DNA of 35,867 bases from positions 1-35,867 of the forward strand of contig SHZN01000005.1 of NCBI GenBank assembly GCA_009692245.1, read 5' to 3'. Within the stretch, counting starts at the first letter, position 1. Each line of letters starts with the position of its first letter. The position numbers and the translations under genes were made by a program. Origin of the DNA: Gammaproteobacteria bacterium (GTDB taxonomy: Bacteria > Pseudomonadota > Gammaproteobacteria > Steroidobacterales > Steroidobacteraceae). Positions 12,856-20,129 of the stretch are shown piece by piece. The notes below the pieces were generated by a model, which was not told where the DNA came from, ran no database searches, and saw only the letters and a list, made by a program, of their open reading frames with translations.

Positions 12856-19437
<6,582 letters not shown>

Positions 19438-19492
19438 GGCCAGTAGTTTTTCCAGACTATACGTCGCACCGGGTACTTAGCAGCTTGACGAC

Positions 19493-19498
19493 ATAATC
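19493..19498 (-). promoter_or_regulatory. -10 element for the oxidase gene
   Basis: On the minus strand GATTAT, placing +1 near 19486, with the centre of the CRP-type dyad about 40.5 bases upstream. There is no good -35, as expected for an activator-dependent class II promoter. A second candidate, TATAGT at 19456-19461, is closer to the gene but out of phase with the dyad. Confidence 0.4.
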
Positions 19499-19518
19499 AC
19501 GACCATTCGTCCAGGCAC

Positions 19519-19534
19519 TGTGACTCAAATCACA
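19519..19534. promoter_or_regulatory. CRP/Vfr-type binding site, perfect TGTGA-N6-TCACA
   Basis: TGTGACTCAAATCACA has both half-sites perfect. CRP, Vfr and Clp proteins bind this pattern. Its position relative to the minus-strand GATTAT fits class II activation of the oxidase gene. Which CRP-family protein the host has is not known from this window. Confidence 0.65.
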
Positions 19535-19663
19535 TTTCTGGTTGCCGCCATCAGTGTAGCGCAAATTATCGGGTAAAAAATGCCGGACCCGGTTGTTTCG
19601 GGATGCCCGGCCTGTCTGGTCCGAGCCCGGCCGGTCGTCCATGCGGGGCGGTGACCAGGCACC

Positions 19664-19725
19664 GCAATCGCCACTGGCGCCCCTGGTGTGTTCCGCGCCG
19701 GATTCCATGCCGAGCGCCGGCCACA
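19664..19725 (+). repeat. right copy of 62-bp direct repeat, decayed tgt 3' end
   Basis: Same orientation as 14946-15007 and 4718 bp away. The half corresponding to tgt coding sequence has drifted and the tgt stop is changed (TGA to GGA), while the last 25 bases are identical. This looks like a second, no longer selected copy of the tgt terminus on the yajC side. Confidence 0.85.
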
Positions 19726-19745
19726 GACCGGCTCTGTGGCATAAT
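19720..19745 (+). promoter_or_regulatory. hairpin and extended -10 promoter for yajC-secD-secF
   Basis: GCCACAGA-CCGGC-TCTGTGGC is an 8-bp stem. Its right arm runs into TGGCATAAT, an extended -10 (TGn plus CATAAT) with +1 near 19752, 48 bases before yajC. This could give the sec genes their own promoter now that they are cut off from tgt. Confidence 0.45.
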
Positions 19746-19799
19746 CACGCGCCAAAATCGGGGCCGGTACCGCCGGCCCGCTTTCGCAGAGGATCATCG

Positions 19800-20129
19800 A
19801 TGGACTTTTTCATTTCACCCGCCTGGGCCCAGGCCGCCGGAGGGTCGTCCGCCAGCACCTGGATGAACATCCTGCCGCTGGTGCTGATCTTCGTCGTGTT
19901 CTATTTCCTGCTGATCCGGCCGCAGACCAAGCGCGCCAAGGAGCACCGTGAAATGGTCGCCAAGCTGTCGGCAGGCGACGAGGTCGTCACGACCGGTGGG
20001 ATCCTCGGGCGGATTGCCGAGATTGACGAGAGCTTCGTGACACTCGAAGTGGCGCCGAAAGTCACCATCCGGGTGCAGCGACACCAGGTCACGCAGCTGA
20101 TGCCGAAGGGCACGTTCAAGGGCACCTGA
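19800..20129 (+). CDS. yajC: preprotein translocase accessory subunit YajC
   Basis: Small inner-membrane partner of SecDF. The 109 residues begin MDFFISPAWAQAAGG, contain one membrane helix (residues about 22-41, MNILPLVLIFVVFYFLLIRP) and the cytoplasmic signature KRAKEHREMVAKLSAGDEVV followed by TTGGILGRI. I start at ATG 19800, with AGAGGA nine bases before, rather than at the longer open frame in the track. It heads yajC-secD-secF. In most gammaproteobacteria tgt lies immediately upstream; here the antisense oxidase gene intervenes. Confidence 0.94.
   Translation: MDFFISPAWAQAAGGSSASTWMNILPLVLIFVVFYFLLIRPQTKRAKEHREMVAKLSAGDEVVTTGGILGRIAEIDESFVTLEVAPKVTIRVQRHQVTQLMPKGTFKGT

Follow-up and report, generated by a model that had tools for sequence, protein, structure and literature searches.

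Class II CRP-dependent promoters are defined by a binding site centred at -41.5, which overlaps the -35 element (PMC2859248). The closest described counterparts of the promoter analysed here are Escherichia coli promoters of this kind, galP1 and CC(-41.5), which, as predicted for the present promoter, combine TGTGA-N6-TCACA at about -41 with a -10 element and have no -35 of their own (PMC2859248, PMC5449483). CRP orthologues of the same consensus also govern quorum sensing, motility, biofilm formation and more (PMC5449483). A regulator of the same type, Vfr, acts in Pseudomonas aeruginosa at promoters such as that of fimU; its targets there are pili or virulence genes, whereas the predicted target at the present locus is an oxidase (PMC8787478). 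As an enzyme, this oxidase is comparable to the AA5 copper radical oxidases, of which galactose oxidase is an example: the copper-site residues are common to both, but here one chain also holds PKD, beta-propeller, di-haem cytochrome and PA14 domains. A literature search on cytochrome-fused copper radical oxidases found nothing relevant.

The window, that is, the whole stretch of 35,867 nt that was analysed, contains a single exact match to the pattern TGTGA-N6-TCACA: the sequence TGTGACTCAAATCACA, which reads TGTGATTTGAGTCACA towards the oxidase gene (Table 1). The preliminary description had placed this perfect dyad about 40.5 bases upstream of a start predicted from the hexamer GATTAT. This geometry is confirmed, as the dyad centre, at 19526.5, lies 28.5 bases upstream of GATTAT and at -40.5 to -41.5 relative to the predicted start. 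The promoter had also been described as lacking a good -35, and we indeed found none, with not one sigma-70-like hexamer pair in 19330-19810. Compared with the E. coli class II promoters, the start of the oxidase transcript is a predicted one and the regulator is a CRP/Vfr orthologue with an in-frame stop in the assembly. The dyad agrees with both half-sites of the published Vfr consensus, TGNGA and TCACA, and departs from it at the centre, where it has GAG instead of AGW (PMC8787478).

Table 1. Coordinates of the features discussed in the text (window positions unless another locus is named).
Feature	Position	Strand	Basis or remark
Copper radical oxidase fused to PKD, beta-propeller, di-haem cytochrome c and PA14 domains	14926..19350	-	ORF, Pfam
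Left copy of 67-nt imperfect direct repeat (3' end of tgt)	14941..15007	+	empty site seen in L075
Predicted transcription start of oxidase	19485..19486	-	inferred from the -10
GATTAT, predicted -10 hexamer of oxidase promoter	19493..19498	-	20 nt past dyad
Perfect CRP/Vfr-type dyad	19519..19534	.	sequence
Right copy of direct repeat	19659..19725	+	82% identical to left copy
CATAAT of conserved TGTGGCATAATC element before yajC	19740..19745	+	outside insertion
yajC, divergent neighbour	19800..20129	+	orthologue in 37 of 38 relatives searched
Dyad between MFS and FHA-domain genes	L001:1501-1516		orthologues L150, L147; class II layout to GATACT
Exact CRP dyad between FimT-like pilin gene and pyrG	L002:1501-1516		
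Dyad between aroC and FimV-like gene	L003:307-322		orthologues L144, L145, L146, L148
crp	L005:1432-2130 (G000:C19)		in-frame TAG at codon 69 in available assembly

Taken on its own, GATTAT is weak evidence for a -10, because it matches TATAAT at only four of six positions and because a hexamer of this type is found at the class II gap, on either side of the dyad, in about 9% of cases by chance. Its assignment as a -10 gains support, at the level of alignment, from the nearest orthologue of the oxidase (L043, 71% identity), which has upstream DNA in common with the window from TGATTATG, in the GATTATG region, down to the start codon. Above TGATTATG, this orthologue has no dyad, and a TCAC half-site alone remains. 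Footprinting across the other oxidase orthologues examined revealed no convincing dyad upstream of any of them. In one of these, L113, a near-dyad TGTGACGCGCGTCTCG with two mismatches lies 22 nt before TTATGTCG, at a spacing equal to that in the window; we set it aside as an instance of conservation, the upstream DNA failing to align even with that of its nearest relative, L105. Since neither the nearest orthologue nor the others examined carry a convincing dyad, the site is particular to this oxidase locus or lineage.

Evidence that the motif itself is meaningful comes from the genome as a whole (1.62 Mb in 132 contigs, 76% complete), which was scanned by pattern searches with the reversed pattern as a control. 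Four exact dyads were observed against about 0.56 expected from base composition (P about 0.003), all four of them intergenic, and the reversed pattern had no exact match. When one mismatch is tolerated, little excess is left, with 11 dyads versus 6 for the reversed pattern. Exact dyads also clearly exceed the reversed pattern in many genomes across the order.

Two of the four exact dyads recur at orthologous places within the genus. One, located between aroC and a FimV-like gene, is found at an equivalent position in five of the seven genomes of the genus; both half-sites are invariant there, whereas the spacer differs. The other separates an MFS gene from an FHA-domain gene in three genus genomes, again with fixed half-sites and a variable spacer, and is always followed 21-22 nt further on by GATACT, a class II layout. 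A third exact dyad separates a FimT-like pilin gene from pyrG; a search for a class II -10 next to it found none. In genome G037, an exact dyad lies just upstream of a crp orthologue, about 0.3 kb ahead of its conserved C-terminal half. Comparative evidence of this sort indicates that TGTGA-N6-TCACA is in use by the genus and functional in the group. Separately, on the FimV strand a strong and conserved TATAGT precedes the aroC/FimV-like dyad, so that CRP could act there as a repressor.

A CRP-family gene, on which the proposal of a CRP/Vfr site had been made to depend, is present. Searches with PF00027 and HTH_Crp_2 identified one CRP-type gene in the genome and, within its 76%-complete assembly, no second full CRP/FNR-type gene. 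In the available assembly this crp is interrupted by an in-frame TAG at codon 69. Copies in other genomes of the genus are intact, and the rest of the gene is under strong constraint, with 54 synonymous against 7 replacement differences from the G003 copy; the TAG therefore either arose very recently or reflects a consensus error in the metagenome assembly. With it, the regulator may or may not work in this strain. The orthologue from another genome of the genus (L115) gives matches of 8.5e-79 to E. coli CRP and of about 1e-75 to Vfr. In an alignment read by eye, with residues placed by the E. coli CRP numbering, it keeps the recognition-helix motif SRE..GR, the cAMP-pocket RS and the AR1, AR2 and AR3 residues, either identical or conserved in charge. 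The genome further encodes one class III nucleotide cyclase domain above the Pfam cut-off, which may be of the adenylate or the guanylate type.

Since TGTGA-N6-TCACA is in use in the genus, and since the genome has both a CRP/Vfr-type gene and a cyclase domain of class III, the dyad is best read as a probable class II CRP site acting on the inserted oxidase gene, a reading we hold with some reserve. Under this model, the genus's single CRP/Vfr-type regulator would bind the dyad; with cAMP, and positioned at about -41.5, it would substitute for the missing -35 and recruit RNA polymerase to GATTAT by class II activation, and the copper radical oxidase gene would thereby be switched on. The start site, the binding of CRP, its role as activator and not repressor, and the signal that induces the gene are all inferred. 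The class II CRP/Vfr site of the preliminary description thus stands as far as genus-wide motif conservation, promoter geometry, the CRP gene and the cyclase domain are concerned, and lacks a counterpart at the oxidase orthologues examined. The accompanying suggestions of carbon control and of an alternative substrate fare less well: nothing in the sequence supports either, and they do not follow from the site, because CRP orthologues with the same consensus serve many functions besides catabolite control. To name the carbon source as what controls the oxidase would be a guess.

The genomic setting of the site is less familiar than the site. Relative to G003 (about 91% nucleotide identity), the window has an insertion of about 4.7 kb between tgt and yajC, flanked by the two copies of the 67-nt direct repeat. 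It holds the oxidase gene with its upstream region, dyad included, and nothing else; neither an integrase nor a transposase was seen within it. The left copy of the direct repeat carries a TGA that ends tgt early. The oxidase frame is without the stop present after RLYSN in the nearest orthologue and, because this stop is missing, it runs on antisense into tgt. Of the yajC loci of 29 relatives, 25 have tgt upstream of yajC at a distance of at most a few hundred bases, and none has an oxidase gene there. Because the oxidase-free relatives have no dyad and the nearest oxidase orthologue has none either, the dyad arose in the insertion or came with it. We tentatively envisage that a single gene, encoding a copper radical oxidase-cytochrome fusion, was inserted where tgt ends, with the 67-nt duplication as its mark, and that a class II CRP site which it brought along or acquired may have wired it into the cAMP network of its host; this full scenario is possible rather than probable. 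The insertion is the more unusual part of the finding, while the regulation itself is ordinary: the arrangement is a familiar one and knowledge of CRP itself is unchanged. What the locus adds is a probable target of CRP in a gammaproteobacterial group that is uncultured, together with a genus shown by comparison to read TGTGA-N6-TCACA, and a modest example of the way in which a global regulatory network may take up an inserted gene.

Other readings of the dyad were weighed. The site might be a genuine CRP-type site that is now an orphan, the TAG in crp being real and the strain without a working regulator. The in-frame stop at codon 69 and the failure to find a second full CRP/FNR-type gene both point in this direction; against it stand the strong constraint on the rest of crp, the intact copies elsewhere in the genus and a genome just 76% complete. 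We regard an orphan site as rather unlikely. An equally modest chance attaches to the dyad being a random match in AT-richer inserted intergenic DNA, binding nothing that matters. It is conserved in no oxidase orthologue examined and was picked by eye, and a window of this size would hold an exact dyad about once in 80 (base composition predicts 0.012 per window and, for the 226 bases of inserted intergenic DNA, 0.00015). Against this, about six-sevenths of the genome's exact dyads are in excess of chance, and the oxidase dyad is intergenic and combines class II spacing with the absence of a -35.

That the dyad serves the divergent yajC-secD-secF genes and not the oxidase is suggested by its position, some 266 bases ahead of yajC in upstream DNA common to both sides. 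However, yajC has its own conserved TGTGGCATAATC element, situated outside the insertion and also found before yajC in L075, L076 and L078, and as TGTGTCATAATC in L077; no dyad, even with one mismatch allowed, precedes yajC at any of the 29 relatives' loci; and towards yajC no -10-like hexamer stands at a class II gap. With relatives retaining the yajC promoter element and having no dyad, we reject this assignment as highly improbable. An FNR/Anr-type site was likewise discarded: the half-sites fit CRP better, and the incomplete genome yielded no separate Crp/Fnr gene. A probable class II CRP site acting on the oxidase is the reading we retain.

As to the oxidase itself, its open frame extends to GTG 19437, and its start is likely to be ATG 19350, judging from the signal peptide and the alignment of orthologues. 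The motifs FCSS, RWYS, LYHS and VTHN of the protein align with FCPG, RGYQ, TYHS and VTHT of galactose oxidase, and the Cys, Tyr, Tyr-His and His aligned with the copper site of that enzyme are all present. In galactose oxidase the Cys-Tyr cofactor and copper ligands are Cys228, Tyr272, Tyr495, His496 and His581. By residue conservation, then, the gene product is classed as a galactose-oxidase-type (AA5) copper radical oxidase. The family is patchily distributed in the order and in Burkholderiales. Beside the nearest orthologue lies a gene for an SCO1-like copper chaperone, named by eye.
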